Below are positions 3,901 through 55,616 of a DNA stretch of 64,000 bases, in pieces. Both the position numbers and the translations under genes were made by a program. Every line of letters begins with the position of its first letter. Within the stretch, counting starts at the first letter, position 1. The notes under the pieces are model-generated. The model was not told where the DNA came from. It ran no database searches and saw only the letters and a program-made list of their open reading frames with translations. This DNA is from Utricularia gibba (Eukaryota; Streptophyta; Magnoliopsida; Lamiales; Lentibulariaceae): positions 1,738,501-1,802,500 of the forward strand of contig NEEC01000014.1 in the NCBI GenBank assembly GCA_002189035.1, read 5' to 3'.

Positions 3901-4576
3901 ACGAAGTTGTAATGGATGCATATTCTTAACCTCTATGTGAGATTTTTTTTTTCACATTCCTGACCTATGAAATGCAGGCATCTTCCGAAGCTGTTCCATC
4001 AAATCAGAAATCTGATTTTCCCCTTATCCAAGAGCTTGATCAAGACCTCTCATTAAATGGCAACCCCCATTGAGTCCTGACTCCATTTCCTTTCCTTCAG
4101 CAGTCTCGGATATGACTAATTCTCATATGGATCTTCAGACAGCAGTCAATGACACAGATCGAATTACAGAAATTGATGGTCTGTTGTCTGAGCTTGACCA
4201 TGTTGGGGACTTCAGCATCAAACAACACATGCCAAGTTCAAGTGTATCTGAGAAACAGTGTGATACTATCGAGGGCTCACTCATTGCTGGGACGGCAACT
4301 TCAGAAGGTGCAAATTTACCAGTGGATCAAGAGTTAGATGGTGCTGACAAGGATAAAGGACTGAAACTGAAGCCTGATGTCAATCAAATAGAAGAGGTAG
4401 CTTCTTCCGAGGTGAAATCAGCCAGTCTCCCAGTATCCGCGGATTCTGACCAGGAAGTCAGAAGTCCAAAGGAATCACATTCAGCTTCAACGCCCTCTAA
4501 GGCAAATGGAAAAAGCTCTACTTCAATCTCAAGTAGCAGCTCCGATTCAAATTCAAGTGATTCGGACAACGATTGA
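976..4576 (+). CDS. large acidic membrane-anchored protein of unknown function; frame broken near 3' end
   Basis: Exon 1 is 976-3849 and exon 2 starts at 3978 after a CAG acceptor. The ATG at 976 opens 958 codons. Residues about 35-78 contain two adjacent hydrophobic segments, followed by a very long Glu/Asp/Ser-rich region. A conserved-looking core at about residues 375-540 has an Arg-Arg-Arg-Ala-Arg-Lys motif and two Asn-Pro-Phe-Asp repeats. This matches a plant-specific family I know only as uncharacterised transmembrane proteins (for example Arabidopsis At5g17910). In exon 2 the frame from exon 1 ends at TGA 4071-4073. A different frame is open from about 4040 to the stop at 4574-4576 and encodes an acidic Ser/Asp-rich tail. 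One extra base in the C5 run 4064-4068 would join them, giving about 1157 residues. I infer a sequence error or a recent 1-bp deletion. Confidence 0.75.
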
Positions 4577-5311
4577 GAATTCTACAACTATCCATATCCT
4601 CCATTCTGTTCTTCCTTATTTATTTTTGTTGAACTTTGTGTGTGCCATTTGTTCGAAAGGCAAGGTTTTGCGTCTTCAGGAATGCGTTTTCTTCTGAGTT
4701 CTTGAAGATGAGGTTTGGAAATTCTTTTTCTTCCCAGAGGAAAAGTCATCTCTTGGTCACATCAAGTTTTTGCTGTTACCCCGGACTTTGAGACCCTGTG
4801 TGCATTGCATTGCCGGAGGTTGGACATTTCTCTTGTGCATATGAATGAAACTGGACTCTTGCCTCTCTTTGTCACTACTCTGTTTTACAAAAGTAAGTTG
4901 AGTTTATAGCTCACAAACTAAAAAGCTCAAGTCTTCAAATCTGCAATCCCCAAGGGGGGGGTGGAAAAACATCGACAAGATTTCACCTTTCACTGGTTTT
5001 TCGACCATTTCTTTCCACACAAACTAGTGCAGAGCCCCTCTTCCTTCTGTTCTCCCGAAACGACGTCGTCCACATTCTCTTCCACGCTGCTCACCTTCCC
5101 GTAGTGCTGTTGGCTGCCGAGTGGGAAGTGGGGAGATGAAGTATCCAATAAATATCTGGAGCTGTCAACGTACCAGTGCGAGTACTCTATTCTTTTTTCT
5201 TTAATTTATTTATGTTTTAATTCGAAGCGAAAGAGAAAAAGAGGTTTGGCCCAGAGCAGAGACTGTAGACAGCCAACCGAGAGATATCCCTCGAGTTCAG
5301 CCTAGCTAAAA
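4577..5311. other. intergenic with 3' UTR and calmodulin promoter/leader
   Basis: No coding exon is supported. The first part is T-rich and fits the 3' UTR of the upstream gene. A G8 run lies at about 4954-4961. The part after about 5000 is the likely promoter and 5' UTR of calmodulin. Confidence 0.45.
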
Positions 5312-6248
5312 ATGGCGGATCAACTCACCGATGACCAGATCTCTGAGTTCAAGGAAGCATTCAGCCTTTTCGACAAGGATGGCGACGGTAGAATCCGACT
5401 TTTTTTCACTTTTGTTTGAATTTTCTCGTCAGATCTGACTGAGTGCATTTCAGTTTTTTTTTTTTTTTTGGATTGGGGGTGCTACCTTGTGTACTGGTCA
5501 TTTTGTTTTTGTTAATTCGTTCATAGATTTCAGAGTTTTCCCTGGAACTGAAAGGTGTCTGCCATTGTTTGTGTGAATTAGCAGCTAGGACTATTTGCAA
5601 ATGATTCTTATTGTCTTGCTAATGAAGTGCCTGCTTTGTATCCCTAGCCTTAGTTGTATTTTCTGTTACTAGGCAATGGATCATGTATTCAAAATTCTAT
5701 TTTTTGGATCGGTACAATTGTTTAAAATCGAAACACACCTGAACACTACAAACAGTAGGGATGAATGAATTCTTGGGATCATAAGTGGAAAAACCGACTT
5801 GTGTTTTTGAGATTGATGGATTGATTTTGGGATAAATATATGAAGCATCACTGACCCTGGACGTTTCTGGACAGGTTGCATCACCACCAAGGAACTTGGA
5901 ACAGTGATGAGGTCCTTGGGGCAGAATCCAACTGAGGCCGAGCTGCAGGATATGATCAATGAAGTGGATGCAGATGGCAATGGTACCATTGACTTCCCAG
6001 AATTTCTGAACCTCATGGCGAGGAAAATGAAGGATACTGACTCCGATGAGGAGCTAAAGGAGGCATTCCGTGTGTTTGACAAGGATCAAAATGGCTTCAT
6101 CTCGGCTGCTGAGCTGCGCCATGTCATGACAAACCTTGGAGAGAAGCTGACTGATGAGGAAGTGGATGAAATGATCAGGGAAGCAGATGTTGATGGTGAT
6201 GGGCAAATCAATTATGAAGAGTTTGTCAAGATCATGATGGCCAAGTGA
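5312..6248 (+). CDS. CAM: calmodulin
   Basis: Two exons, 5312-5387 and 5875-6248, encode a 149-residue protein, the standard length. The single intron splits the Gly codon in the first EF-hand loop, the usual place in plant calmodulin genes. Four EF-hand loops are visible at about residues 21-32, 57-68, 94-105 and 130-141, each with Asp at position 1 and Glu at position 12. Cys27 in the first loop is the plant hallmark. The C-terminus is Met-Met-Ala-Lys. Calmodulin is the cytosolic/nuclear calcium sensor that binds amphipathic helices in many targets. Two other genes here, the VQ protein and CIP111, belong to families with calmodulin-binding members. Confidence 0.98.
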
Positions 6249-6829
6249 GTTGAGATGGAGCCTTTTTTTCAGGGACTGAAACCTTTCTTGATGAGTTTTG
6301 CTCTTCTGGCCCCCTTGTTGTCCCATCTCAGGAACTGTAGAGTTTATGTTCTTGTGCTCTCTCTTATCAGTCTTATCATCAGTTTGGGAATGACATTCAT
6401 TATGCCGTTAACTCCATATTTCTTCACCATTTCTTGCTGGAATCAGGAACATGGTGCCTTGATCTCACCACTGTAGGGATGTCATTTTGGAGTCAAAAAA
6501 ATGTCGTTCAAGTAACATTTTCGCCAACCAAATATGGTTTTTACATAAGCTCAAGGGGCACGTTTGCTTTAGAGTTGCTTAAGTTTTTTGATTGTCGAGT
6601 CAATCATTTCAAATTTCAAACATAAACACGATGACAAATAAGGATTATTGCAGCAGATTCAAGCAACAGATAGTGTGATGCATTATGCCATCATTACACT
6701 TCCCAAACAGTATGCTAAAATTTGCATCTTAAGAAATGATAAAGAAGGATTATTGCCAAAAGTCTGAAACAAAACAAGTTCCTCAAACCACGAGGAAATA
6801 GTTGGAGCGGTTATTCTCTATGGGAGCAG
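6249..6829. other. convergent 3' UTRs of calmodulin and COX5C
   Basis: This stretch lies between two convergent genes. It holds T-rich 3' UTR sequence from calmodulin and, on the right, the 3' UTR of the minus-strand COX5C gene. No further gene is seen. Confidence 0.5.
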
Positions 6830-7024
6830 TTAATCCTCTGCCGCAACCACACTGACTTCACCCTTATCGTACATATCATAAAACTCCTTGGTTTTCCTCT
6901 GCAGATTCCAGTGGTACATCTTCCACACGCTTCCAGCAGCAATCCCCAGTGTTATACCAATGAGTATCTCCTTCACCACACTTGGACCTTTCAAAGTAGC
7001 ATGAGCAACTCTAGAGCCAGCCAT
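6830..7024 (-). CDS. COX5C: cytochrome c oxidase subunit 5C
   Basis: A single uninterrupted 64-codon frame encodes a small basic protein with one transmembrane helix at about residues 18-37. The Ala-His-Ala-Thr-Leu-Lys-Gly-Pro-Ser-Val-Val-Lys-Glu start and the Trp-Lys-Met-x-His-Trp-Asn motif after the helix are typical of plant COX5C. It is a nuclear-encoded subunit of mitochondrial complex IV. Length and start agree with the family. An intron in the leader is likely: a good minus-strand donor lies near 7679 and a plausible acceptor just upstream of the ATG. Leader introns that boost expression are described for plant COX5C genes. Confidence 0.95.
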   Translation of the reverse strand: MAGSRVAHATLKGPSVVKEILIGITLGIAAGSVWKMYHWNLQRKTKEFYDMYDKGEVSVVAAED

Positions 7025-8443
7025 TTTACTTCACAAGGAAACCAGAATGACATTTCCAAAAATCAACTCCATGATAATAAGTAAAAACTAGCCAATGAAC
7101 AATCAGTACAAGTAGAGAACTCAGCTTTCTAGCATGGATGCTACTGCCAAAATGATCCCACCAACGTATATTTCCTACATCTCGATTAGTTAAGCGTAAA
7201 GAGTAAAATCCAAGACCATTGATTGTCACTGCTCATCCCAAAATAACCTATTTATCTAGCCTCCTGAATTCATTAAATCATAACTAAACATCATGTCACA
7301 TGCTGCATATACCTTAACCCAAAAAAAAAAAAAAAAAAAAAACGCTGTAGAGGCAAATTTGACGATCAATTGTTCTCTGGATGAGTCCATCTCAATGGAA
7401 CATCCATTTCCTTGCATCCTTTACCCCCTTCTTACATACTAACCATTAGCTAACCCTATCAACCACTTTTGACCCAATAACCGGTGGCTTGTAGAGAAGA
7501 TATAAACGCGATCGAATGTAAACAAGGAGCAAGGATGCTACCCATCAGTCACAAATCTCATGTCTGAACTCGAATACAAAAAAAAAAAAAAAAAAAATCA
7601 AACCACCACATACCCCGACACAATTGCCTCCCTTGGCAAAACGTAATCGGAATAACTCGAAATGGAAGCGGTGTCGTACCTTCTCCTACAAAACGCAGAA
7701 ACCCAGCGGAATCTGGAGCAAGCCCTTTTCAATAAAAAACTGCGATGGCGATGACGACAATTTTGAGATCTGTAAAAGCCCTATTCGGACCACTAGCCTT
7801 TCGAATGGATTTTCCGATACTTTATAAATATTAAATATTTATAATTATTAATAAATTATTTCCGCTTTATGTTGGTGCTATTTTGATGGCATACTATCTG
7901 GCGATGGCGCCTGGCTTCATTTGGAACGGTCGGAAAAGTTGGCGGAGACAATTTCCCTCGCTCTTCCGATTGCTGTTTATCGTTCACTCTCACTCCGGTA
8001 AAGCATCTCTAAGGAAAGATTCGGTGGCCTGGCATTTCCATATTTAGCAGACATATGGGGAGGAAGATCAGTAATATTCGCTGGTCTAGGTATCTGATTT
8101 TGTACGCCTAGGTCCTGTTTCTGTGCCATTTTTCGTTCCGGCTTCCATGATGTCGGGTTTGAAGTTATGGGAATCATAATTTCCATTGAAGAAGTGTTGA
8201 GATGCACAATGAGAACTTTTGATTCTGGGGCATCCTCTGCTCATAGTTCCCATTTTCCCCGTTCGTGTGTTCTATTGGCGGTTATTTAAGCTGTAGTTGA
8301 AAGAAAAGATTGTTTTTCTGTTTAGGTAACACTACCTTGTTTGGAATATCTCAGCATAAAAACTGAAAGTATGAGAACCATAAATTTTGGGTAGAGCTCT
8401 TAACATGATGATCTTCAGTCACTTGGCTTGACCACTTCCACAT
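7025..8443. other. COX5C leader and upstream sequence, poly-A tracts
   Basis: About 7030-7679 is the probable COX5C leader intron, and the untranslated first exon lies to its right (about 7680-7760). Two long A runs (about 7321-7342 and 7579-7597) and an AT-rich stretch near 7825-7860 are visible. From about 7870 to 8440 I find no gene. The N-terminal half of the GH51 pseudogene that follows is not detectable here. Confidence 0.4.
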
Positions 8444-10160
8444 CTTGCAGAGGATTTGGGGGCATTACCTGTATGGTTGTCCACTGGTACTCCGTTTTTT
8501 TTTTTTTTTTTGACATTTTTCTGTATACCCTTTCTTCAACAGCGTGTTGTATTTTTCAGTTTTCTGTGTTCAGTTGTATTTTTACTTCTTTTTAATTTTC
8601 AACTGTTCTCAGGAATCGCCCATGGGGAAAAAATTGATACTACTCTTACCTCACCTGTTGTACAGGTTAGATCAACTACCTTAACTAAACCTCCATTAAT
8701 TATTATCATTTCCTACAAAATTCTCAATTATGAATTTTGTGCATTCTACTTGTCAAACTTTCGGAGGCTTTGCATGGTATTGACCTCTGTAGGGGTCCTG
8801 GTACTGCAAAGTGACCTCTTTCCGAGCGACCATGCAACACCATGGACCCTTTGACCTGCATCATGTCGCAGTTAGTAACGAAGATTGTCCCTTCCTGCAT
8901 TACAAGGGTACGCCGTAGAATAGTTTTTCAGTTCTCAAGTGAGTTGAATAGAAGACATATAACTCCTGCCATCTCCTTACTCCGTGTAATTAATGCAAAA
9001 AGTTCTATCATGCTGTAAAAGAAACATATCTGGATATCAAAATTATTACAGCCTATGACGGTTCTTCAAAACCTCTAGCGTCCAGCCCATCTTTATGATT
9101 ACCACGTAATCGCGAACTTTGGAAATCTTTCAGCTGTCCCAATTACTTTTTTTGTCTCAATTTTTAACCCTACTGCATTTTCTATGATTACAGAGGTTTT
9201 GCAATTCAACTAGAATGTTTAATGCTGCCATATTTTTTATGCAAGCAATTTCACAGTTCTAGCTGCTCTTGCTGAAGCTGCTTTCCTGATTGGTTTGAAA
9301 GAAATAGCTAACTATATTCCGTTTCAATTAACAAAACCTCCTTTCTAAAAATCTGGTGGCTTTTAGATAACCATCATGTGCATGTCTTTTTCGCAGTCAT
9401 GCTGTGATGCCAGCCAGCTCTGTTTGTAAATGGAAACGACCAACGGTATGTTTGTCCAGGAGTCTTATCGAACCTTTGTTTCTTCAGGTTCTCATCTGAA
9501 TAACGAAGCACAGGTCTTTCCTTTGTTCAGATGCTCTCCACCTTTGTTTTCAACTCATTCTAGGCATATGGGATCCCGATTTATTGGATGCAGCACTTCT
9601 TAATCAAATCAAACGGTGCCATGCTTCTCAGTTCTCGCCTTGAATTCAACCCTTCAAAAAAGCTCATTGTTTCTGCCATAACTTTGAAAAGCTCCGTTGC
9701 GGAATAACATCTTAAAATCAACGCCCGCTTCTAGATTTTCCAGAAAAGGAGCCCCTTCTTCACATTCAGCAACTCATGTTACATGAATCATCATGCAGGT
9801 GGTGAACTATGGTTCTAATACAGTGAAGCTCCAGGTATCCATCCCATGTTTGCATGAAAACACTACAGAAGCCTTCACGGTTACAAGGACTGTACTGGAA
9901 TCCTACGATGTGATGGATGAGAATTCTTTTTCCCACTCCAGCAAGTTGAGCATTTTCTTATTTTCTTTTCTTTTTTTTGTGTTTTTTGCTGGGCTGACGT
10001 TCGATTTTTTTTTTTTTTCTTACAGGTAGTACCAGTGCAGTCAGTTATCGAAAATCTAGTCATGAAATGGAGTTTTTAGTTTCTTCATATTCACTAACTT
10101 CATTTGCCTTGGTGCCTTCAGACGAGGTGAAGATAATTGGGTCCTGGTGTATTCAGCAGC
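8444..10160 (+). pseudogene. decayed GH51 alpha-L-arabinofuranosidase copy
   Basis: The segment matches, in order and orientation, exons 8-11 and 13-17 of the intact gene downstream. Matching blocks are about 8444-8489 (exon 8), 8613-8665 (exon 9, identical length of 53 bases), 8764-8907 (exon 10, one base short), 8986-9105 (exon 11), 9257-9307 (second half of exon 13), 9397-9445 (exon 14), 9560-9706 (exon 15), 9799-9940 (exon 16) and 10060-10160 (exon 17). The first seven exons, exon 12 and the half of exon 13 with the nucleophile Glu are not found. The acceptors before the exon 8- and exon 10-like blocks read AT and CG where AG is needed, and stops and frameshifts occur. This is a 5'-truncated, non-functional tandem copy. 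Confidence 0.85.
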
Positions 10161-20161: not shown

Positions 20162-21996
20162 TATCTCCAGAGACTATTCGCAGGGCGAGGACGGGGAACA
20201 ACGCAAGAGGATCTGCAGAGGAATTACGGAAAGGAATTGGGAATGAAAGGAGCAGCTGAAATGCGTACCTAAATAATTAGGGCGGTGTGGAGAGAGGCGA
20301 GTTGGCTCTGTACGGACCACAGGAGGGGGGTGATGGCATTATGACGTCATCCTGACCGAAGAAGCGGCAGTCCATGGTTTCACTGTTGAGCCGGCTCAGC
20401 ATTACATCGGCTGACTAACGTAGCCATCTAAATCCATCAACACATTTTTAATTTATAATTTGAATTGAATTAAATTTGGTAAATTCATTTTTACTAGCCG
20501 CAATTAAGTAGTCAGTCCAATTACAAGCTGAAAGGAAATCAAGACAGTTTTCTTCTTCGCAGCAGTCACTCCTCGATAGTAACGGAAGCGAGCTGCGATT
20601 CTTGAGATCGATAAGTAATGGAGATTGAGCTACTGTGAGCAGTACTGTCATCTGGTATTTCCGATTCAGTTGGTGAAAGCGGAAACGAAAATTGCAGAGG
20701 TTTGCGACACTGAAATTGCTGCAGGAAACTGATTGTTTGCTGTTTGGCCACTGAACCAACCGATTGTTCGATTCTACGATCGATGGATTGTTCTCCAGGT
20801 TTTTTCGCAAGGTTTCAAGGTCTGATCTCGCTTTCTTGCTACTTCCTCAGCATGCTATTGCGTCTGCTTGACTCTTTGATTGTTTTCTTGCTTAATCTGT
20901 GAAGGATTCAACAGATAATGATTCATTGGAAAATGACAGAGAAGCAAGAACCAGTACTTCGATCATCCGCCTGAAGTGTTTTTCATTGGCGCCCAATGAA
21001 AAAGTGATTGCAGAAAAAAGAGCGATTGCGCAAGGATGACGCTACCCTGACGCAAATGTCTCTCGATAATCGAGGGATTCCCGTCCCCAACGACAGGCAG
21101 AGCAGTGCAGCTGGACTTATCCGGCTCGGCTCGGCTCGGCTCGGCTCGGCTCGGCTCGGCTCGGCTCGGCTCAGCTTTCACAACGACTTCTCAGTCCTCA
21201 CGTACGATTTTGGAAAACCAAAAAGGGGGAAAAGGTAGTATTGTTATTCTTTGGATGGCTTTGTCCTTATTTACCTAATTTACAACATGACACATGTTGA
21301 TGTTAAGGCTGCAGATTATGAGGAGAGGAACCACGCACGGTAAATGGTTGACGGTGGAGAACGCGGTTTTCCTTTGACCGCTGTGCGAAAGCCAGCCTCA
21401 CATCGTGGGCACCGTCCGCCTACGCGCTCCCAGTATCCTCTTTTCCCTTACCCCTTCCAACTTCGAACAAACTACAATATTCTCCCCTACTTTAAATATA
21501 AGAAATACGCACTTAATCCAATGCACACACTGGGGCGGTCTATTTCGTAATTTGTCTTTCTGGTAGACCTCAAACTTGTCTTCTTCAAAAAGAACATGCA
21601 ATATGATGGTGGAGGCACTTACGTTATATGGTATGGAAAAAGGAGCATGGGGGTTGGAGGGAGAAAGGCAAGCCCAAGTCCCATCATGTCATAGAGCTGA
21701 GGAAGAGAGAAGATGCGGGCTGTGGAGCGACACGCAGGCTGCTCTCTTTAAAGCAGATTCTAGAATGCAAAGATGCTTGATGCCCAAATGGACTCCCTGC
21801 AGAGTCGGCGGGTAATTAGCGTCTATCGCAGGGAAGATGCTTGGGGAATGAACCAGAAGTGCGCCAAGAAAGATCTGATACCGCGTTTGGAAGCATTGAC
21901 AAGAGAAGAATCACGCAGAATCCAACATAAGGTGCCAGACAAAATAGAGATGTCTCCAAGAAACTTCAAAGGGGTGTGGAGGAAGGAAAATGTGGC
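20162..21996. other. intergenic: VQ promoter, pentanucleotide repeat, 3' flank of NAC-alpha
   Basis: Short open frames occur on both strands (for example about 20448-20810 minus and 21576-22000 plus), but none has a recognisable domain or splice context. The CGGCT repeat at 21122-21171 is listed separately. I see no gene that can be supported. Confidence 0.35.
21122..21171 (+). repeat. (CGGCT)10 perfect pentanucleotide microsatellite
   Basis: Ten exact copies of CGGCT stand in tandem, then the pattern breaks to CAGCT. It is GC-rich in an otherwise AT-rich intergenic stretch. No coding context is evident. Confidence 0.95.
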
Positions 21997-30961: not shown

Positions 30962-33405
30962 TCAAGTAGTCACGAAGTTGGGGGCAGATCCTTTGAATGG
31001 AAGCACGCAGGAGTAAGTGACATACTTGATGCTGTCGACCAACACGACAACGAAGATTCGTGAGAGGCTCTTGGCTCCCATCACACCATCCATCTCGGAG
31101 TCGCCAGACTCCCGAGGATCAAACAGAACCGAGACTACCATCGATGTTGAATTGGTGTGTCCATGGAAGCCATCTTTCTCTGAACTCTTGTTCCCTGCAT
31201 GTTCTGTTGTAACATTTTGTGAGGATTCTTGGAATGGAAAGGTTTGGAGAAACCTCCGGTTCCACCCCTTGCTCAGATGTGTAGAATTCTGGTTCTCGTT
31301 TTCTGTAATGTTTTGTTTAGCTGTTGCTGGAACTATGGCGGTGGAGACATCAAACTGGAAAACTTCAGTGCACATCCCTGCTGCCAACATAGGACCTGGA
31401 TGTGAAGAGAGGATGTACGGCTTTAACAAGAACTTGACAATGGAACCAATGATAACATCTTAGAGCAACATAGGGCAGGATAGAAACATGTGAAAGTAAA
31501 CTTGATTACCAGCAAGGCCTTCACGGAACCATTGCTGAAGAGCACCATCAGTTCCAGACGGCTTTTTCTCACCCTTGCCTTCTGAACCTGAACCAAGAGC
31601 CCTCAGATGTGAATGCATCCCCATGCCTGGTAGAGCTACAGCAGATGCAAGATCGCCATGGACTGCCAACCCAGTTTCACTATCAACCTTCAGGTTAGAT
31701 GCCATAGCTTTCTCACTTGCTAAAACAGAATGGATAATCAAGTTTCCATCTATCTTAACAAGCTTATCATTTCGTGGAACATACAATGAAGCTGCCAAAG
31801 GCTCGCTCCTATTGTTCAAACCTTCGAATCCTGTACCCTGGTTGCTCTTACTTGTTTCATTATGATAAACACCACCTCTACCGCTATCCACATAATTGCT
31901 GTCATAATCTGTGTCGTTAAACATCAACACTCTCCTGTTATGTTTTTCATCGACTCCTCCTTTGAGGTAATTTTCTTGAACTACTAATGAGGCCCTCTCG
32001 TCTCCATATCTTACATTAACCAAGGGAACCAAGCATCCAAATAACATTGTGAACAACAACAAACCAAACATACTTACACCAGCAACCTTCTTCGTCTTAG
32101 GGCCCTCACTTTTCGTACTTTCAATCTTCTTAGTTTCAACAGTACTTTCAACCTTTTTAGGCTCAGGTTTCTTACTTTCTACCTTCTTAGTTTCAGCCTT
32201 CTTACAGTCAACCTTCTTAGTTTCAGCCTTCTTTGGTGCTTGTGCTGGCTGCTGAGGTTTTAACCTTGGGATGGGCACTAACGGCACATGAGATCCCTGT
32301 GGTTTAACCATATAAGGTGGCGCATATGGCATCCATGGATAAACCATGGCCAGGTGCGGCGGGTACACTCCAGGAGGCGAGGGTGCCAGAGGAGGAGGAG
32401 GAGGAAGAGAAACTGCCGGAGCAGCAACACCACCACTGCTCATTTGTTGCCGCAAAGCTACATTTTCAGCCATAAAGTATGAAATCTTTGAGTTCAAGTC
32501 TTGAATTGTTGTATGCATGTTCCTTACCTTATCTTCCAATTCCTCCACGTAATGCTTTTTCCTCTGCCTAGACAACTGGGCACTCTCTCGATTCCTCATT
32601 AACCTTGCCTTCCGTTTCTCCTCCTCTTCATTCATACATCCAGTACTATTTCCAACATCGCCACCTATAGATTTCCTACACTTACTACTCCAAGCCTCTG
32701 AGTCCGTGTTAAGATTGCCTTCGTCATCGTTTTTCCTTTTCAACGAAGAATGGCTCCCATTGCAGTTATCCGACACCACTATCTTCTGATCAACCACTCC
32801 TGTCAAAATCGAACTTTTACTATAATTTGGGGGATAGCTTACAGATCTAGCTGGCGAGCCATTCGAACCCTCTGAGACATTGTTCACTGAATTCTTAGAC
32901 ACTTGAGAATTCGGGGAGAGGGAAATCGGTTCCTTCACATCACTAGCATGGTCACCAGAGCTACCGGGGTTCGAACCGTTTGATTCCGGTGAAAGCGTGT
33001 TCAGATACTCGGATACCATATTAGACTCTTCCACTGCCGAAACCCCGGAACCATCCCCCTTTGATCACCAAAGACCTCGTAAACTCCACCAATATGCTGT
33101 GTCTCCGAAGACGTCGATTTGAATACAGCCAGCAGCTGGTCCGAGCTCAGAGTCGAATCATGGAAATTACAAACCCCCTCAGCCTGTAAATCTGACTGGT
33201 ACTGCCGATCGGGAGAAAAGAGATCCCCCAATTCATCGGACATAGGAAGAGAGAGACCATCGAAGGAGAAATCAAAATCAAGGTCATCCAAAACGACGCC
33301 GTTTATCAAATCATTCGAAGGGCTGCCACCACTAGTCCAGACGGAATCCAACGGCGGAATAGCGAGACCCGATTCCCACTCCGGTGGGTCAACCACCGCT
33401 TCCAT
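30962..33405 (-). CDS. BZIP17: membrane-tethered bZIP factor (bZIP17/bZIP28 type); 1-bp frame break
   Basis: Exon 1 is 31510-33405 and exon 2 is 30962-31458 (minus). The N-terminal 120 residues are acidic and activation-like. The bZIP basic region Asn-Arg-Glu-Ser-Ala-Gln-Leu-Ser-Arg lies at about residue 270, followed by a leucine zipper, a Pro-rich segment, a Lys-rich repeat and one transmembrane helix near 440-460. On the luminal side Arg-Arg-Val-Leu is a good site-1 protease site. Such factors sit in the ER membrane, move to the Golgi in salt or ER stress, are cleaved and enter the nucleus. The start frame and main frame differ by one base at the C5 run 33055-33059 (G5 on the coding strand). 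With six bases the product would be about 797 residues. As written it stops after about 134. Confidence 0.9.
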
Positions 33406-40400: not shown

Positions 40401-42064
40401 TTCCTTGGAAAGACCACCCAACTTTCGAAATTTCCATGATATGTTACTCTCTGATTCAGATTCTCGGGATGCAAAAGAAAATCCTGAAGAAGTCATATCC
40501 CTGGGGTGACTTGAATGAAGAAAACGAACTTTAGTATCACGATTTACAAAGAATAGAGATGTGGGGTTTCCTGATTGAGAGTCTGAAATGTCATGCTTCT
40601 TATGAATGCCATTCAAAATTTTACTATTTGAGGAGCATTCTTTAACATCCACAACCTGGAAAAGGCATGGTCCTGAGAGCAGCTGAATTGTAACAAAATT
40701 TCCCAACAGCAAATGTTGATACATTAACCACAGTAATGCACAGCGTTCTAGAAGTTCCGTAGTTGAATCATCGCCCAATATATGATCAAACGGTAGCACG
40801 CTATCAGAATGAGAGGCTACTTTTTGCTCCTCCATTTTGATTTTAGCCAATGAGCAAAGAGGAAATAGGCAGAGTTCTTTGCAATCTTCCAAAAAAATAC
40901 TACTAGCAGGACTAGGAGGCTGATTAATCAATTTCTCAGTTGAACTGTGGACCTTAATGGGTTGTAGTAAAACAACTCTTCCCAAAGGTGGACACCCCAT
41001 TCGGTTGTAAAGTTCAGCAGACAAGCAAACCCCATTCTTTAAATCCTGCACACAGTGAATCTCTGACCTTTAGGACAAGGTTATGAAAGCACAGGGTATT
41101 TCCAGAAGCAGAACGTGTTCCAAAAGCACACCATGCGACATCAGGGTTTTCTTTTTTTTTTTTTTTTCTGTCATAGAATCCAGAAATAAATATTGACCTG
41201 GAATAGCTAAAAATTCCCCTTGAACTAAATTTATTTTCAGATGATTCAACAAATAAGCTACATGATACCTTACAAGATGGGCTCACAGTAGCCATGACAA
41301 AGAAATTTCCTGCTGCATCTGCCCTTATACCCTTGGATTCAAATCCAAATTTTGCAGCACATTCATCTGAAAAGGAACTCAAAGAGAATCCGCTTGAACC
41401 TTTGTCCAAAGAAGGAAGCGAAACCTGCCATTATGGTATACCTTAGGATGAAATGGATTTGTTAATACTTATGATAGAACGCATGCAAAAGTGTTGAATA
41501 TGGTTACGGAATAGGAGACAGAGTTGCTCCAAAAAGAAATGGAGCACATAAAAAAAAAAAAACACATCGTATTCAGGCACTAATGCAAAATTACTTCTGC
41601 CTACCACAGTAATAAGAGTTTTTCAGAAAATTTGACAATTTTCTTTAAAGAGCTCCCTTGAACATTTAGATTTCCGAACTTGCAGGAAAGCATTAGGGGT
41701 GCCAAAAGCTGTTGGAGAGAAAGTAAGGAAAAGATTACCCGAAACATAAACAAGCGCATACCGAAACTAGGGAACCATAGGGAATGGAATAGGAAACCAT
41801 GGTCGCCTCCGAAAGCCAAACATTGCAGCCCTTGGAGTCCGATACCTTGGCTTCCGCGATTTTTCCCACGAAAGCATCTCCTGTGATGAGCGATGGGAAT
41901 CTTTCAGAAACTCCATCAACTATAGACGATAACTCCTCCTTGCTCGGAAATGACGACGAAATAACCGCCGACGAAACTTCGGAATTCACAGATTGACAAT
42001 CGAAGTTATCAGAATGCGAGGGTTTTGTAGGCGTTATCGACTTCTTCTTCTTCGCAGAAGGCAT
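37439..42064 (-). CDS. CIP111: calmodulin-interacting protein 111, AFG2/Drg1-type AAA ATPase
   Basis: Ten minus-strand exons join in phase: 41762-42064, 41269-41424, 40354-41045, 39880-40084, 39587-39794, 39261-38768, 38640-38214, 38113-38033, 37929-37739 and 37657-37439. They give 991 residues. A Lys-rich start is followed by a Cdc48-like N-domain. AAA domain 1 has Gly-Pro-Pro-Gly-Thr-Gly-Lys-Thr near residue 396 and Phe-Ile-Asp-Glu-Leu-Asp near 454. AAA domain 2 has Gly-Pro-Pro-Gly-Cys-Ser-Lys-Thr near 740 and Phe-Phe-Asp-Glu-Ile-Asp. The Cys-Ser P-loop is typical of the AFG2/SPATA5 family, which acts in 60S ribosome maturation in yeast. Arabidopsis CIP111 binds calmodulin in vitro. The start lies 254 bases downstream of the cyclin stop on the same strand. 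Confidence 0.94.
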
Positions 42065-42318: not shown

Positions 42319-44725
42319 TTAACTGGCGGGTGAAAGTGTTTTTGCCGGCGGCAAGAGCGCCACCGCCTCACGTTCCGGCGAAGAATATTTCCGGAGAATG
42401 CCTCTTAGCTTTGGATCCTCTACCGCAAAATGGTGGAAGGATACCATCAACTTCGCAGAATCGCTGTTCAACAAAAGGACAAAGAATCAGAAACAAGCGA
42501 ATGATTTTTAGCGTCTGATACCCAGAAAAATAAAGTTTGTTCTCTCACGTAAGTTGCTCTTCTGAGAATCCGGTATGAGCTTTTAGCGTTGCTGTCCAGT
42601 AGGGTTCTTCCTCCACCGTGCAACGAGCGGCGTAGACTGCCGAGGCGGCAATCATGGAAGGAGAGTAGATAAGGATCTCGTAGTTCATCATTCCAAGCTC
42701 TGCAAGGAAATATGCCATGTTCTCCACCTGTTTGACAAAATGCAAGAAAAAAATACCTTCGGTGAGAAGTTGGGCTTTGAATGATGATTCCCGATACACG
42801 CCACTTACATTCGGTCCTGACATGGATGCCTTGATGAAGCGAACAAGGAAAACGTAAGGAGTAGGGACCGTTAACTTCCATTCTAGCTCGGCCAGTATCA
42901 TTTTCTCCATAGCCAGAACCTGCTGGTTTGTGTAAGTTCTGTCTGAAATGCAGACAAGGTCATTCACCTGCAGATCACACGACACATGTATAAAATTCCA
43001 TGACGATGAAGATGCCTTGTGTTCAGTGTAAAGTGATGAACCTCAGGAGCCCAAATTTCTTCATATTTGGAGGCTAGAAGAAGCGCACCCAAGCCCACCA
43101 ACTGAAGTTCTCTTTTTGTGGTGGGTTTAGCAGCAAGGTATCGGTCGACGATGTTGAATGTAAGATAAAGAGCTTCCTTAGAGAGCTCGAATTTGTGGTG
43201 AACTTGTACCAACCAGTCTATCAGGATTGCTCGCATCTTCCTATTTATTTCAGGTTGAGAACTCATGTAATCATGTACAGTGCCTTCATTCTGCATCACA
43301 AGGGAGGAGTGTGCTTGTTCATGATTTCTCACAAAAGCGCAGTGACCAATATGTAAGCTAATTGCATTATACATTGTGAATACCTCAGATGATTTGTAGT
43401 ACCGGTACATATCCTCAACATATTCCACTGTGGCTAAGTCATTCTCCACATCTGCAGCATCAATATCCACTACTTGATCTTTGAGTTCACTTCTCTGACT
43501 ACAAGCAGCCTGAAGAACAAAATTCCATTTAAGTGATTAGCAACAGAATCAAAGCCCTTCCTTAGGAATGACCATTTTACCAAACCTTGCTTCTTGCTGT
43601 GAGTGCTGCACTGAAAGCTTGAGTCTTGGTTTTTGATGATTTCTCTTTGATGGGGCGTTTCTCCTTTACTACCACTTCCTTAGAAACCGGACTGATTACA
43701 ATTATCTCATTAGGTTTTGGTTGATCTGCAGTCTCTTTATTCTGAGTCTGCTTACGGACTACGCCTCTCTTCTTTGGCAAATCTCTATCATTTGGTACAA
43801 CTCTCTTGCTTTCAACTGCTACTGCCTGAATATTAGCCTGTAACTGAGCGCAGTATCTCCTGAAAATGAAGGGTAGATGAATGAATGAACGAATCAACAC
43901 AACCTTTTCCAGTTCACCTAAAATAAAGACAAAAACTTTAAGTACCTTGTAGCAGGTCGAGAAACCTGAGGAACTTGTTTGCCATCGACTCCACGAACCC
44001 TAACCACATTTCCTATGTCTCCCAGTGCAGGGCGACTCTTCTTTTCGACTCCAGCCTTCTTCATTTTGTTGGTAACTCCTGGTACTGCGTCTCCTGTGAA
44101 TCATTTCGAGACATTAAGCATTATAAAGTAGCCAGTTGTAAGACCATAGAGCTTGAACACTGAAAGGCCATAGTCCATAATCAAATCAGAAGCCAAGAAG
44201 AAACTGGGAGAATTACTTTTCGAATGAAACAAGATGGGACTATAAACTTTTGACCAGACACGCATCATGCAGTGTAAACGATCACGAGACAGAAAGAAAC
44301 AACTGAAGCAACAAGAAACACCAACAGCCATCAAAATGGGCAAAACTTTTTCTCATCGGGAAGATCCTTGAGTAAAGAAACACCTCATAAGCATTAGACT
44401 ACAGTAATTACATTGATAAAGGTTACATCTTTCAGAGAGCACCGCGGAACAAGAAAACTGAAGACAGCGATGCACAAGTTCGAGGCAAAATAATCAAAAA
44501 TCCCAACACCCCACAATGGAAAAACGGTGAAAACGTCAAGGAAATAAAACAAATATTATTTTTAAGAAGATCCCAGGCGGACAATATCAAGAACAAACGA
44601 TCAGAGCGAAACTTCATTGCGCCCATGTTCGATCTCTAAGAATCAAAATAACTGATATGCGAAAATCGTATGATGAACCACTAAACACCTCCGTAATTCT
44701 TCTGGGCAATGCTCCTTGTCGCCAT
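42319..44725 (-). CDS. CYCB1: mitotic B-type cyclin (CYCB1 type)
   Basis: Eight minus-strand exons, 44689-44725, 43946-44093, 43586-43859, 43384-43509, 43042-43290, 42809-42967, 42549-42727 and 42319-42463, encode 438 residues. The destruction box Arg-Pro-Ala-Leu-Gly-Asp-Ile-Gly-Asn is at about 33-41. The cyclin box contains Met-Arg-Ala-Ile-Leu-Ile-Asp-Trp-Leu-Val and Lys-Tyr-Glu-Glu-Ile. The C-terminal cyclin fold ends near Ser-Ser-Pro-Glu-Arg. It partners CDKA/CDKB at the G2/M transition and is destroyed by the APC/C. The 37-base first exon was found from its ATG, donor and phase. MSA-like elements lie upstream. Linkage with SCAB1, as for Arabidopsis CYCB1;4 at At2g26760, suggests orthology. 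Confidence 0.93.
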
Positions 44726-45770: not shown

Positions 45771-48700
45771 ATGGCTGGTGGGAAGGGCATGATGTCTGAT
45801 GACGAAGGTATACGTTTTTCACATAGATGGCTAGTGGCGGAAAAAAATGTAAGATTTTGACGTAGGAAACAAACGTTTCGCCGCATTGATTTTTCACAGA
45901 TGACGTTGGTATTGACGACGAGGAGAGGGATGAGGAACCCATTGGAGATCAAGTTGGGAATCTGGACGATGAGGAGGAGGATGAAGAGGGTAAAACACAA
46001 ACCAATATTTTATGAGTAGCTTTTAGGGGGGCGCCATCCTTGATTTTTGTTTTCTTGATTCTTGTTTTTTCATTGTCCAATTCCCATGTGATTTTCTGGG
46101 GCTGTTGCAGAAGTCATTTACCGAAAGATTACCGTGGATAGTTGAGAAAAGGGATGAGCTTTACGTTCTTTTATGTCTAATATCTCACTGAAGCCTTTCA
46201 TGTAATTTTGGTCATTTTTTAACATTATCGTACGTGTTAATGACGATCAAGCTTCTGCGTGTTTGAGTAACTATTGCCATTTTCAAACTGAAACTTTTGC
46301 AAACAGCTTATCATTTTGGCACGAAGTCTAATTAAATTCCTTGTTTGACACATATACTTCAGATTGTTCCAGAGCATTGTATTCTTACAAAAAACTTGTA
46401 TTCTTATTATGGTACCATTTTGTTGATCTCAAAATAAAATGCTCTCAATGTTTACGTGAATGACTGCACCTTTCTATGTTTTTTTTTTTTTTTTCCGCTG
46501 AGCAGAAGGACAAGACGAGTATGAGAAAGATGGGTTTATAGTGGATGACGTGGATGAAGAAGAGGAGGTGGAAGAGCGTGTTGATAGTGACGAGAGGCAT
46601 AAGAAAAAAGGAAGAAAAAGAGGTTTGTAATTTTTATGATGGCCAGTTATCAAGGTAAAGCGTACATTCATAACTTCACCATAATTTATTTTCAACTGTT
46701 ATAGGGAGTCAGAGAGGAATTATGTGCTGGATGAGGATGATTATGAGCTTCTCCAGGAAAGCAACATTTCTGTTCCTCGACCCAAACTTGTGAGTGTTGA
46801 TGTCATGCACACCACCTCCGCCTCTTGCTTTGGCTCTCACTGCTCGTTGCTGTTGTTAGGAAAGTAAGAAGTTCAAAAGGCTTAAGAAAGCTCGTGGAAA
46901 TGCCGAGGGAGAGCCCTCTGGATTTTCAGATGATGAAGAATTTGATGTGAATGGGACGGGTGGACACACTGCTGAGGAGAAGGTTAAGCGTAGCTTGTTT
47001 GGTGATGATGATGGTTAGTAATGTGGAGAAATATTTTCTTTTTGTGTCTCTTTGTTTCTTTAATTTATTTGTATTCTGTAATTCCTGCAGGACAACCACT
47101 CGAGGATATAGCAGAAGAGGATGAACCAGTGGAAGATGAAGACATTGGTGATGAAGATGACATGGCCGATTTTATTGTTGAAGAAGAAGATGTAGATGAA
47201 CATGGAGCTCCTATGAGGTGCGGGATGTGGAAATTGTGAATTATATTCATATGTCACACATCATTGTAATTTTGAAATCACATCCATGTGCAGGAGGAGA
47301 AAACCCAAAAAGAGCAGGCAACATCCTGGAGTTTCTTCATCTGCACTCCAGGAGGCACATGAAATATTTGGTGATGTCGATGACCTCCTGAGGCTGAGAA
47401 AGTTGGAGGTTAGGGATAGTTATAGTGAAAGAGGTACAAGAACCCTCGAAGATCAGTTTGATCCTAGTGTACTTTCGGAGAAGTACATGACTGGAAAGGA
47501 TGGAGAAATTCGGGAAATTGATGCTCCTGAAAGAATGCAGGTTTACACATCTTTTTTTCGTGACTATATTTAGTCGATTTTTCTTATTTTTCTTCTTGAT
47601 AGATATCTGAGGAAAGCACCGGGGATCCTCCAAAAGACGAGAAAAGTATACAAATGGAGACAGATTGGATACATTATCAGCTTATTAATGGTTTGGTGCC
47701 ACTGTTTGGGAAGGTTGCTTCATTGAATGAGGAAGCCCATGGTGAATTGAAACGTGATATCGCAAGATGCTTGGAATTAATGCATGTTGAGAAATTAGAT
47801 GTATGTATTTTCTCGATAGTGCCACTTAATTTGGCCGGTAACCACTGATGTTATGATGTTTAATATACTCAAAATATATCACAGGTTCCATTCATTGGCA
47901 TGTATCGGAAAGAGCAGATCTTGAACCTACTGAAGGCTTCAAATGACTCTACAGATAATGATTCCAAAGAAAACCCTACTGTGAAGTGGCACAAGGTGAG
48001 AATTTGAAATTCCTTGATTATTTCATTTTGGCCCCTGGAATTGTATTTCTTTTAGTTTTCTTCTTTTTTTTTTCAGTCCATCCTTAGATATCTCATAATT
48101 AAATGCCTTGTGTTGCAGAGCCTTTGGACAATCAAAGATTTGGATGAAAAGTGGCTTCTACTTGAAAAAAGAAAAAGTGCCCTTCTGGTATACTGTAGTA
48201 AGCGTTTTGAGGAAGAAAGTCGAAGAGTGTATGATGAGACACGTCTCAATTTAAATCGACAAATATATGATTCAATCGTGACTTCACTTAAAGCTGCTAA
48301 TTCTGAAAGGGAGGTTGATGATGTGGATTTGAAATTTAATTTGCATTTCCCTCCTGGCGAAGTTGTCCTTGATGAGGGGCAATACAAAAGGCCAAAGAGG
48401 ACATCTCGTTATAGCATATGCAATAAAGGTGGCCTGTGGGAGGTTGGGAGCAAATTTTGTTACAGTGCAGAAACATTTGGGAAGCTCGCATCTTTGGAAA
48501 AAGTGGTGAGTATAATTGATTCTTCCAATGCTCTCATACTATGTTGAATTCACCTGTTTGCCACTATCAGAGAACAGAGGAATTGGAGGATCCTAAAGAA
48601 ACACCTGAAGAGATGGCTTCTAATTTTACAAGCGAGATGTTTCAAACTCCTGAAGCTGTGTTGAAAGGCACAAGGCACATGGTATTGTTTCAACTTTTAT

Positions 48701-51700
48701 TCTGCTAGTTTTTATGATTTGGGTGGGTTGGATCTGTGCATCATCTCAACCTTCATAATCCAGGCTGCTGTGGAGATCAGTTGTGAACCACGTGTCCGCA
48801 AGCATGTACGCAGCATCTTTATGGATGAGGCTGCTGTAACTACTATGCCTACTTCCAGTGGAAATACAGCGATTGATTCTTTCCATCAGTTTTCTGGAGT
48901 AAAATGGCTAAAGAACAAGCCACTTTATGCATTTCAAGATGCACAGTGGCTTATGATTCAGAAAGCTGAAGAGGAGAAACTCTTGCAAGTTACCATAAGT
49001 CTTCCAGAGAGAGTTCTTGATAAGTTGTTAAGCGATGCAAAAGATTATTATCTAAGTGATGGTGTCAGTAAATCTGCTCAGTTGTGGAATGAACAGAGGA
49101 AACAGATAATTGAGGATGCGTTTTACAATTTTCTGTTTCCTTCAATGGAAAAAGAGGCAAGATTGTTGTTGAATAGTAAAGCTAAAACCTGGTTACTCTG
49201 GAAATATGGAAAATTATTGTGGGAAAAGGTGTCTGTTGCACCATATCTGCCCAAAGGAATTGATGCTAATTCAGATGAGGAAGTGGCTGCAAGGGTTATG
49301 GCTTGCTGTTGGGGCCCGGGAAAGCCATCCACAACCTTTGTAATGTTGGATTCATCTGGAGAAGTTTTAGATGTGCTGCATGCTGGGTCACTCAACCTCC
49401 GTGGTCGAAGTGTTAATGAACAGCAAAGTAAGAAAAATGATCAGCAGCGTGTTCAAAAATTTATGATGGATCACCAGCCACATATTGTAGTTCTGGGAGC
49501 AGCAAATTTATATTGTCCAAAGCTAAAGGAGGATATTTATGAGGTATTAATAGTTAAAATATTCTGAGATTACTCCTTCATTCAATGCCCATTCAATTTT
49601 TGATAATATTTTTCACGTATTGATTTGACCTTCACCTAAGTGGGTATTTTGTGATGGATTTCACATGATGGGGATTACTTAAAGTTTTCTAACAACAAAA
49701 AATAACCTTCGCATTTTCTATGATTTCGGATTTTTTGGATCCATATGACCAGCTCATATTGTATGGAGAATACTTAGCATGTTCTTATTGCACAGATTAT
49801 TTTCAAGATGGTGGAAGATAACCCCAGAGATGTTGGGCATGAGATGGATAACTTGAATGTTGTTTACGGTGATGAATCTCTTCCACATCTTTATGAAAAT
49901 TCCCGTATATCAGTTGATCAACTCCCTTCACAAGAAGGTATGTCTTGAATGAAATGTGGATATTGTATATGAGAATGTCATTGAAACAATCCTTCGGCGT
50001 TATATGTTGATTGCTTGCCTGCTCAGTTCCTGGATGCTGTTTTTTTTATGCCGAGCTTTTTCATGCATTCTCTTCTTATTTCAGGCATTATTAGGCGTGC
50101 TGTTGCTCTTGGACGATACCTTCAAAATCCATTGGCTATGGCTGCCACTTTGTGCGGACCAGGAAGAGAGATATTGTCTTGGAAACTTCATCCTTTAGAG
50201 AACTTCCTCACTCCTGATGAGAAGTATGGAATGGTTGAACAAGTCCTGGTGGACATTACCAATCAAGTGGGTCTTGATTTGAATTTGGCATCTAGCCATG
50301 AATGGTTGTTTGCACCTTTGCAATTCATTTCTGGCCTCGGACCTAGAAAAGCCGCATCTCTGCAAAGGTCACTCATTAGGACTGGACCAATTTTTAAAAG
50401 GTCCGATTTGATGTTTACACATGGTCTTGGTAAAAATATTTTTATCAATGCTGCTGGATTCTTGAGAGTTCGGCCTAGTGGCTTGGCTTCCATCAGTACG
50501 CAGTTCATGGATTTGTTGGATGACACCCGGATACATCCACAATCTTACCAAGATGCAGTAGACTTCGCCAAGGATATTTTGCAGGAGCATGGTGATTATA
50601 GCAATGATGATCTAGGAATGGCTGTTGAATATGTCAGGGATAAGCCTAATTTATTAAGAGCCATTGATGTTCACGAGTATGCTGTGCAGAAGGGTAAAAT
50701 TCACTTAAGAGAGACCTTAAATGATATAAGGGTAGAGTTGATTGAGGGATTTCAAGAGAGACGAAAACCGTATGAGGAACTAAATCAGGATGATGAGTTC
50801 TTCATGATATCTGGTGAGGCGAAAGATTCACTTACCGAAGGTAGAGTAGTACAAGCTACAGTTCGAAAAGTGGACCCTCAAAAAGCAATATGTGTTCTTG
50901 AATCCGGATTGGATGGTATCCTGCATAAGGAAGATTATAGTAGTGATTGGAGGGATTCTAATGATTTAACAGATAAACTGCATCCAGGTGATGTTTTGAC
51001 CTGTAGGGTTAAATCAATTCTCAAGCATCGCTATCAAGTGAATTTGACTTATAGAGACAGTGAACGGGGTGGTAACCGTTTTGAGAACCACCAGAATATG
51101 GATCCTTTCTATGATGAAAGCCACACGCCTTTAGATACAGAACAGGAGAAATCTCGTAAAGAGAAGGAACTTGCAAAAAAAAGGTTTAAGCCAAGGATGA
51201 TTGTCCATCCCCGTTTCCAGAATATAACTGCTGACGAAGCAGTTGAGGTAAATTTTATTTCGTATCCCAGAATGTGAATCACGCTCTTCATGTTTGGAAG
51301 AAGCCCTTCATGGCTGTGTTTTTCTTAGAATATATTACTTGGGCGCTGGCATAACACTTTTTACCATTTTTGCCATCAATGATCTTGATTACATTCTGTA
51401 ATGTAACATTATGCTTTAATGTCTTTTTGTGTCAGTTCTTGTTGGACAAGGATCCTGGTGAAAGTGTTATCCGGCCTAGTTCCCATGGGCCTCTGTTTCT
51501 TACCATTACACTGAAAATCTTTGATGGCGTTTTTGCTCACAAGGATATAACTGAAAGTGGAAAAGAACACAAGGACATAACAAGCCTTCTCCGAATAGGC
51601 AAAAAATTGAAAATTGGAGAGGACACTTTTGAAGATCTTGATGAGGTACTCAATTAGCTTCAGCATGTTGTGAGATATTTTATGCTTGACGCAGACACGC

Positions 51701-52709
51701 TCATTTGAGTCTGCTTGATCATTCAGGTAATGGACAGATATGTGGATCCCCTTGTTGGTCATTTGAAGACGATGCTAAACTATCGGAAGTTTCGCAAGGG
51801 TTCTAAAACAGAAGTTGATGAGCTCCTGAGATCTGAGAAGGCTGAGAACCCCTCCAGGATCGTGTATTGCTTTGGAGTATCCCATGAGCATCCTGGGACA
51901 TTTATCCTTACCTATATCCGAAGCTCTAATCCACATCATGAGTACATAGGCTTATATCCTAAGGGATTCAAGTACCGGAAACGGGTTTTTGAGGACATAG
52001 ACCGGCTAGTAGCATATTTTCAGAGGCATATCGATGATCCACTTGATTCTGCACCATCAATCCGATCAGTTGCTGCCATGGTACCTATGCGGAGTCCTGC
52101 AACTGGGGGATCATCTGGATTTGGTGGTGGATGGGGTGGCTCATCCAACAATGATGGTTGGAGGGGACGCCAAAGTATGGATAGAGACAGGGGTTCTGGT
52201 ATGCACACAGATGCTGTTACTTGATTTTTCACGTTACTATTTTACCTGTTTTCCCCTGATGGAACCGATTCTTTGCAACTCAAATGAAGGTTCTCAGCCT
52301 TCCACCGAATTTGGATTTCTTTGCAGGGAGAAATGAAGGGTCTCGACCATATGGAGGGCGTGGACGCGGCCGTGGCCGTGATTCCTACGGTGGTGGAAGG
52401 GGAGACTGGCAGGAATCCAGATTCGGGTCACACTCACAGAAGTGGGGTTCTAAGGATAGCGACAACGGCGGGGGAACGGGCTGGAGTTCTGGTGGAAGTA
52501 GCGGCGGGAAGGCAGCCGCCGATGGTGGTGGTGGAAGTTGGGGGGGTGATTGGGGTGGGGGAGCCGACGGTGGAAAGGTTGCTGCCGATAGTGGCGGCGG
52601 TGGTGGTAGTTGGGGTGATTGGGGGAATAATGGAGCTGACCGTCCTGATAACGGTGGTGCTAAAGACGGCGGCTCTTCCGGCTGGGGCACTGACGCTGGA
52701 CGGTGGTGA
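45771..52709 (+). CDS. SPT6L: transcription elongation factor SPT6-like with GW/WG tail
   Basis: Seventeen exons encode about 1601 residues: 45771-45807, 45900-45989, 46506-46622, 46713-46789, 46860-47013, 47091-47217, 47294-47540, 47603-47800, 47885-47995, 48119-48505, 48571-48681, 48764-49543, 49796-49937, 50085-51247, 51436-51645, 51727-52198 and 52327-52709. The N-terminus is very acidic with a Lys/Arg patch. A YqgF-like fold (about 725-850), helix-hairpin-helix, S1 domain (about 1108-1180) and tandem SH2 region (about 1250-1460) follow. The last 125 residues are Gly-rich with several Gly-Trp/Trp-Gly pairs. SPT6 is a histone chaperone that travels with Pol II. The exon 3/4 junction is uncertain: the stronger acceptor at 46704 does not keep the frame unless the A6 run 46604-46609 has one more base. 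Confidence 0.94.
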
Positions 52710-53204
52710 TCGTTCACCGGTGCCGGAAAATGTAGTCATTAGCAATGTTGTTCTTGATACGAGTTATGTAATGCGCCTTCGTCATTCCAAATCTTGGGAT
52801 AATATTTTATTTTGAACATAATTTCCTCATTAATCACAAAAACGGTGAAGTTTTTTAAAATTCTTTTATTAACATAATGAAATTAAAAACTTTAAATTAC
52901 GAGAATTCCGCCAATCAACAAACGGCTACCAAAAGCGGGTTTCCGCTAACACGATTTTAGGCGCGCCAAAAACCTGCCCTGCCGGAAGCAAAGGAACCTC
53001 AAGAACACAAGAGACATGAACCAGCATCTGCTCATCCCAACAATGCAAAAGCATCACAAAATGCGCAAGCTGAACAAGCATTGTTAGATGAGAAGAAATG
53101 TGCCGGTCCTCAAATCACGGCATCGTCGCCGGGGCCGGCAAGGATGACCTGAAGTTTCAATCTCATTCAGGAGCCAGATGAATAGAGATGCAACTAGGTG
53201 TGTG
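52710..53204. other. convergent 3' flanks of SPT6L and SCAB1
   Basis: No coding sequence is supported in this interval, which holds the 3' UTRs of two convergent genes. Confidence 0.45.
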
Positions 53205-55616
53205 TCAAGTGTGAAACTGAAGGTGTTGGGGAAAGAGAAGCAGCTTGCTTACATTGCCATCAGAAGCTTGCTTTCTTGCCAGAATCAGGGCTCCGTTTCT
53301 TTCTTGCTCAGACTCGAAGACGAGTACGAAGCTTTGATCTTTTCGAGCTTGCCAGAAGAGTGACTTAGCAGCGTAGTTCCCCCTCCTCTGAATCCGCATA
53401 GCTGACAACAGAGAAGGCATAAGCATAACAGGACTTGGCAGCAGATGAGTGAAAAGGATGAAGCATAACTATGAAGCATAACTTGAACCATAGAACACAT
53501 CCCAGAGCAGCTGATACCTGCATTGAGTGAGAGTATGACTCGCTGGCCTTGGTGATCCACCCTCTGCTAAGCTTTATCTTTGTTTTTCCAATGTGAAACA
53601 AGTGTGCTGAATTTGATGAATAGTTCCGTCCATTCATTTGAGAGATAGTCACCTGTGATATGGCAGAAACTCGGATATGCTCATGGAAAAACTAGAAAGC
53701 TTGTTCAAGGAATCCTTACACTGAAGTCAGTGTTTGATCTTCTCTCCAAATAACTTCCCAAATCCAAGGCTGCAAGTAACCAAGCCAAAATATGATCCAC
53801 TGTTTTGCTCCACCAAACTGAATACATGAAGCCCCATAGAAGAACAAGCATAAAAAAGATTAACCTTGAACTATGGGCCCTGAGGTAGTAAGCGTAAACT
53901 TAAGGCTGTTGGTTGAGATATCAACTTGCAGAACTCGGCCAACATCAAATGGCTCGGGAGCATAAGCGCACTTGTTTGCATCTGGGATTCGTGAAAGAGT
54001 AAAAATTGAACTAAAGATGCATAAGCAAAAGAAAGAACGGTTATGTCCATACCCCAGATAGGTTCCCTTCTGCTACAATGAGATAACAAACGAAACCATT
54101 GGAATGAACATCTGGAGAGCTCAATAGGTGCATCTGAATGCAGCTGAATTCTTAAAATTGAGCCTAATGTCAAGGAGCCAATTAGCTCATAAACCGGGAT
54201 TATACTTCCGCCAAACTTCTTGCACATCTCCAGCTATTCAAATGCAAATGGATAATTTGGATCAGATGAATTTTATGCTGTAGGAAGTCCGTTAAAAGTT
54301 ATGTCTGAGTTGATGACAAGTAGACCTGAAAATGAAGATTAAGAGAAGCTGTGCACTTCTCCTTTATTTGATGCCTCATATCCCTCAACTCATGTTCCAT
54401 ATCAGCAACCTGTAATAGAAAATAACTTGGGTTTGAAGACACCAATCTGAAGACAAAGTAACCATAGTTAAAAAAATTTAATCGCATACCTTCCAGGGCT
54501 GATGCTTTAACTTAATTTTTCTGGCTTCTTGAACCTCTTGAATCAGTTCCTCAAGTTCCTAGGGTGAAAGAAGGTGCTTAAGTGTTTTGTAAAATACCCT
54601 TTCAGAACCAGATAACATGCCTACTTGCTTTTTCCCCGAGCACTGGCTGCGTTCTTGTTCCACAAGAGCCTCACCAATTTTTAGCACAACTGCTCTTGCA
54701 CTCTCAATCTCAGCACAAGCAAAAGACTTTTCTTGATTCACCAATTTTTTAGCATCCTCCGAAGCCTGTTGAATTTCACAAGAAAAGTATATGTTTAAAG
54801 GTAATACAATCTGCACAGTTGAAACTTATGTACGATTGCATATCTGACAAATCAATCATGTGAAGTTCAGCATCAACGTGCTTTAAATTTAGAGACTGTA
54901 GATCTGAACAAAAAATGAATATGTATCCAACCTGTTTAAGCAAATTCACTTGTTTTTTGACTTCAAACTTCTCATGAACCAGCTCCCCTTCCTTCTGGGC
55001 CAATTTCACAGCCAGAGCCTCAACCTGATGAACTTGGAGTAGAAATTAAAGCCGTTGTGTCCAAAGTCAATTAGCTCACTGTGAAGTAAAGAATGGGGCT
55101 CCTACCATTGAAATAGCTTTGTCCACATCGTTTCTGGTATGGCACGGAAACTTTCCTTTCAAGCATTCCAGCACATCCCTAAGTTTCTTCAGGTGCAAAT
55201 ATCCATCAAAGGATGATACCTTCTTGAGTTTGACCTTGCAGGATTCAGAGATAGAAAACACTAAGATTTTCACACATTGCAGCACCTCCCTTATCAAGAT
55301 AAAGAGCTTTAAGTGCTCCAACAACAGAAGACAATAGCAGCACCAAAGCTACCTCCTCAGATAGCTTCGCTGTAGAAGCCAAATTCTTCTCGAATTGACT
55401 TGCCAGGTCACGAACAGACAAACGCTTATGTTGACCCGCTAGCTGATTTGCTTCGTGTTCAACTACTTCCATAACCGTCGGGCCTCTGCAGTCTCCATTA
55501 TTCTCCTCCAACACTTCATTATCAGGTCCTAACTTATACTTGGGGAAATGGTTTGATTCAAAGTTCACATCAAAAGACACAGTCGAACGACTGCCTTCCG
55601 GACTACCCCTCGTCAT
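53205..55616 (-). CDS. SCAB1: SCAB1-like actin-binding protein; 1-bp frame break in last exon
   Basis: Eleven minus-strand exons, 55353-55616, 55106-55234, 54932-55024, 54625-54765, 54490-54558, 54326-54409, 54053-54233, 53865-53981, 53720-53769, 53518-53652 and 53205-53401, encode about 486 residues if the last exon is mended. The N-terminal actin-binding part contains Lys-Arg-Leu-Ser-Val-Arg-Asp-Leu-Ala. A long coiled coil with Ala-Glu-Ile-Glu-Ser-Ala-Arg-Ala follows, then a fused Ig-PH domain with Tyr-Ala-Pro-Glu-Pro-Phe-Asp-Val-Gly. In Arabidopsis SCAB1 bundles and stabilises actin filaments during stomatal closure. In the last exon the frame changes at the C5 run 53379-53383 (G5 on the coding strand). 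One more base would restore the conserved Arg-Gly-Gly-Gly-Asn and the rest of the PH fold. As written, the protein ends in an unrelated Ser-rich tail at 53285. Confidence 0.9.

Follow-up and report, generated by a model that had tools for sequence, protein, structure and literature searches.

Genome assemblies made from long reads only (PacBio CLR or nanopore) retain mostly homopolymer indels, and before short-read polishing their one-base deletions in runs cause frameshifts in otherwise intact genes genome-wide, as described in a paper on bacteria (PMC8812927). The Utricularia gibba genome was assembled by HGAP with a contig N50 of 3.4 Mb, and the last step of HGAP is Quiver polishing (PMC5793159). 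A second comparable system is that of the pseudogenes produced by fractionation after whole-genome duplication, in which frame-broken copies likewise occur with intact homeologs. The frame breaks analysed here are of a narrower kind: the lesions are one-base deletions only and they also affect single-copy and housekeeping genes. We conclude that the assembled consensus very probably suffers from a systematic loss of single bases, an error deduced from the sequences themselves, and that the four broken genes described below are most likely intact in the plant.

The window, that is the whole stretch of 64,000 nucleotides that was analysed, is plant nuclear DNA (G000:C98:1738501-1802500) from an assembly of 100,091,633 bases in 516 contigs. 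The COX1 gene on the mitochondrial contig C515 carries LLLLCCSALVEVG, with contiguous cysteines. This trait, reported in Utricularia and in some Genlisea (PMC3141634), marks the plant as a bladderwort or a close relative, and the assembly is probably the PacBio one of Utricularia gibba. In this COX1 (C515:183547-185854; L075, L076) profile positions 210 and 211 are separated by some 960 bases, probably an intron. Contigs C1 (8,500,000 bases), C2 (6,192,500), C409 (2,492,500) and C515 (267,500) all have lengths that are multiples of 2,500, too many for chance, which suggests that they were trimmed in fixed steps. A 5-base unit, CGGCT, is repeated eleven times almost perfectly at 21122-21176 of the window.

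Direct reading of the runs and frames showed that four window genes lose their frame, three at a C5/G5 run and one at an A6 run. At each of the four sites, called A to D, the sequence is one base short and the reading frame is restored by one added base. The genes and sites are the following:

922..4573, forward strand: gene of a large, unnamed plant membrane protein with open frames; an intron separates exon 1 (ending near 3855) from exon 2 (beginning near 3979)
4064..4068, forward strand: site A, frame break at a C5 run (CCCCC), one base short, in the second exon of the membrane protein gene
30965..33405, reverse strand: bZIP17-like transcription factor gene in two exons (PF00170), with an open homeolog
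33055..33059, reverse strand: site B, frame break at a G5 run (C5 on the forward strand), in the first exon of the bZIP17-like gene
53208..55673, reverse strand: SCAB1-like actin-binding protein gene (PF16711, PF16712, PF16709, PF17684; PDB 4dix/8y47), with homeologs on C409 and C213
53379..53383, reverse strand: site C, frame break at a G5 run (C5 on the forward strand), where the last exon of the SCAB1-like gene begins
46502..52812 (exons recognised), forward strand: SPT6-like transcription elongation factor gene (PF14632, PF14635, PF21710)
46604..46609, forward strand: site D, frame break at an A6 run (AAAAAA), in the SPT6 acidic region

These observations bear out the sequence-only reading, which had claimed three genes broken at C5 runs (found at 4064, 33055 and 53379), one further break at an A6 run and the need for one added base in every case. 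It gave no position for the A6 run, which is most probably the one at 46604 on the forward strand, in SPT6. The apparent breaks near 42992 (cyclin B) and near 41030 (CIP111-like) are ordinary introns by inspection and were not counted.

Homology backs the one-base-short reading at three of the four window sites, and Pfam names SCAB1, bZIP and SPT6 independently. At site B, located inside an exon, the frames join as ...VFGDQRG / DGSGVSAVEE..., and the bZIP17 homeolog (C409:1052033-1054569) is open at the same place within a 697-codon frame. This homeolog also has a C5 at the site, so the lost base may belong to the C run or to the adjoining A/T run. At site C the junction is LCGFRGG / NYAAKSLFWQARK, and the solved SCAB1 sequences (4dix/8y47) read MQLCGVRGGGNAA across it. 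The SCAB-PH profile is matched at positions 1-50 and 58-101 on the two sides of the break, the gap comprising exactly the residues given by the missing-base reading. SCAB1 homeologs were found on C409 and C213. The C409 homeolog, open at the same place, reads GGA GGA GGC AAC, and the base lost at site C is therefore either the last G of the run or the adjoining C. At site D the frames join as ...DERHKKK / ...RESERNYVLDEDDYELL, and positions 10-47 and 48-85 of the SPT6_acidic profile abut across it (47/48). Site A also lies inside an exon, with the junction ...LSLNGNP / PLSPDSISF.... Its protein had no match in the Pfam profile search, and its distant relatives on C451 and C2 have diverged too far at this point to inform on the break.

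Sites C and D could be unbroken if the 3' splice site lay further downstream, by 14 nt in SCAB1 and by 8 nt in SPT6. By direct reading an AG at these positions does give the in-frame junctions SMQ / RRGNYAAKSLFW (SCAB1) and KKKGRKR / ERNYVLDEDD (SPT6). Such acceptors would drop conserved residues, whereas the usual acceptors with one added base restore the conserved residues LCGxRGGGN and RESERNY and give gapless matches to the Pfam profiles. Moreover, the C409 homeolog of SCAB1 is in the ordinary frame, and a shifted acceptor leaves sites A and B, both within exons, as well as the intronless families described below, unexplained. We thus regard this explanation of sites C and D as unlikely.

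The window has a collinear counterpart at C409:1.006-1.076 Mb, for the most part 70-85% identical, which carries the open copies of bZIP17 and SCAB1. The sequence-only reading had taken the three genes broken at C5 runs to be single-copy. This does not hold for bZIP17, which has a homeolog on C409, nor for SCAB1, with homeologs on C409 and C213. The block (C409:1006001-1076000; L026-L032) stems from whole-genome duplication, and some genes have been lost or have decayed on one side. On C409 the gene of site A is a relic reduced to its 3' end, the calmodulin-like copy contains stops and the zinc-finger copy is devoid of a normal 3' end. Two further one-base breaks were found in this block, in the VQ gene (G3) and in the zinc-finger gene (G2).

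The deletions might instead be real: in a deletion-prone genome rich in duplicated genes, slippage of the polymerase in C/G runs would have inactivated one copy of several genes. Since bZIP17 and SCAB1 have homeologs, the loss of one copy could be tolerated. The zinc-finger copy without a normal 3' end indicates that some decay is real, and slippage likewise favours homopolymers. Utricularia genomes are thought to be deletion-prone, which would favour deletions too. Against this, the coding constraint persists beyond the breaks: downstream of the break, dN/dS is 0.33 for bZIP17 and 0.15 for SCAB1. Real deletions would also have to strike SPT6, a single-copy gene for which an N-terminal query of the genome returned self-matches only.

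Decay is expected to yield breaks in both directions together with stops and longer indels, and consensus error to yield one-sided breaks. Breaks were therefore counted in the window, in the homeologous block of C409 and in PPR, GRAS, HSP70 and UGT genes elsewhere in the same genome, searching for pieces of a family in different frames. The search is symmetric, extra bases being detected as easily as missing ones. A total of 29 clean one-base breaks were resolved: 4 in the window, 2 in the C409 VQ and zinc-finger genes, 6 in PPR, 12 in GRAS, 3 in HSP70 and 2 in UGT genes. All 29 need an added base and none needs a removed one. The chance of finding 29 out of 29 in one direction is 2 to the power -29 if indels are unbiased, and about 0.0002 with a 3:1 bias towards real deletions. 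The breaks are not confined to one locus: one-base breaks were found on 15 other contigs and in four surveyed gene families.

PPR genes are mostly intronless. Reading of the 20 shortest-frame genes among the roughly 69 found gave 6 clean one-base breaks, distributed over 5 genes and each mended by one added base. Introns account for the apparent breaks of loci L046 and L048, which were left out of the count. GRAS genes, which are GC-rich, nearly all lack introns. Of the 35 full-length genes, 25 keep an open frame throughout the domain; the other 10 carry 12 clean breaks, all of which need one added base. The runs at these breaks are called as C5, C6, C4, C6, C2, G3, C6, C6, G4, G6, G4 and one short run. 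The conserved Gly-Gly-Pro-Pro codons that follow VHIID are the break point in four of these genes (C375, C142, C2 and C1), and in a fifth (C244) the break is close by; two close relatives of the DELLA-like copies (C451, C375) are open at this place. The apparent breaks of L072 and L074 are introns and were not counted; L070 and L073 are also left out of the count. L073 (C414:3443952-3445017) has an in-frame stop and an offset of opposite sign and is possibly a true pseudogene.

For cytosolic-type HSP70, 4 genes are open and 3 are broken (G3, C3 and G5), each of the latter needing one added base; the apparent breaks between HSP70 pieces lying far apart are due to introns and were left out. The 31-kb contig C241 (12834-18511) and C304:2235549-2238296 carry the same HSP70 region, with identical scores and the same frame break. 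The assembly thus contains a redundant copy, and the break on C241 was not counted besides that on C304. The 2 broken UGT genes (G5 and G2) each need one added base. The break rate of the GRAS genes, 12 in 35 genes or about 39 kb, is similar to that of the window, 4 in about 14 kb of coding sequence; that of the PPR genes, with 6 breaks found in the 20 shortest-frame genes of about 69, is lower.

If these deletions were real, 3 of the 7 cytosolic HSP70 genes and 10 of the 35 GRAS genes would be dead. Real decay would in addition bring stops, insertions and longer indels, whereas every resolved break is a single-base deletion in an otherwise open frame. The several kinds of lesion and the relaxed constraint that mark pseudogenes were not found at the breaks, the frames being otherwise open and dN/dS beyond the breaks 0.15-0.33. 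We therefore judge real deletions to be quite unlikely as the general explanation. The survey is the genome-wide count of indels that the sequence-only reading had proposed, carried out on family samples, and its result, deletions throughout with an enrichment in C/G runs, agrees with that reading.

The dependence on runs is marked but partial. As called, C/G runs of at least 5 account for 12 of the 29 breaks and those of at least 4 for 15, the others being at shorter runs or A runs; C/G runs of at least 5 occupy only 0.8% of the coding sequence listed for the window and 1.4% of the GRAS snippets. Breaks at runs of five, as had been claimed, are indeed what is seen at sites A to C. Five is however not a special length: C/G runs called as five account for 7 of the 29 breaks, and runs of 2 to 7 are hit. 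The listed exons of the window contain about 22 C/G runs of 5 or more, of which 3 are broken, so that runs of five are a hot spot and not a rule. Since 13 of the 29 breaks coincide with runs of fewer than 4 bases, homopolymers are only part of the story. These short runs, and an excess that falls mainly on C/G, distinguish the breaks from the residual errors of PacBio CLR or nanopore assemblies, the technology used here being itself deduced, as PacBio long reads.

Breaks placed mostly at slippery runs in conserved genes could also be bridged in the cell, through slippage during transcription or through programmed ribosomal frameshifting. The sites, though, differ in base, in run length (2-7) and in gene family, with no common context, and homeologs and paralogs of the same genes require no frameshift. 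A slippery site conserved in relatives was not found for bZIP17 and SCAB1, whose homeologs are in one frame at the site. We consider such decoding exceedingly improbable. That the run lengths are real, many one-base frameshifts in conserved genes being tolerated by the plant or decoded through slippage or shifted splice sites, has a very low probability as well.

Systematic under-calling of homopolymers, the explanation first proposed for this window, is thus supported by the one-sidedness of all 29 breaks, by their enrichment in C/G runs and by their recurrence in conserved housekeeping and regulatory families. Intact paralogs or homeologs and coding constraint beyond the breaks accompany these one-sided deletions. 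The supported reading is wider than the original one, covering single-base deletions throughout the assembly, worst in C/G runs, and involves no biological novelty. At each of sites A to D the assembled consensus would have lost one base of a gene that is intact in the plant. The same kind of deletion would occur assembly-wide, concentrated in C or G runs, as would be expected of the errors left in an assembly of error-prone long reads polished with those same reads only.

Users of this assembly should not take a one-base frame break as evidence that a gene is a pseudogene or has been lost. From the GRAS sample, about 1 break per 3 kb of GC-rich coding sequence is to be expected. With such breaks, too many genes would be scored as lost or shortened, and this in a plant whose gene losses are themselves a subject of interest.
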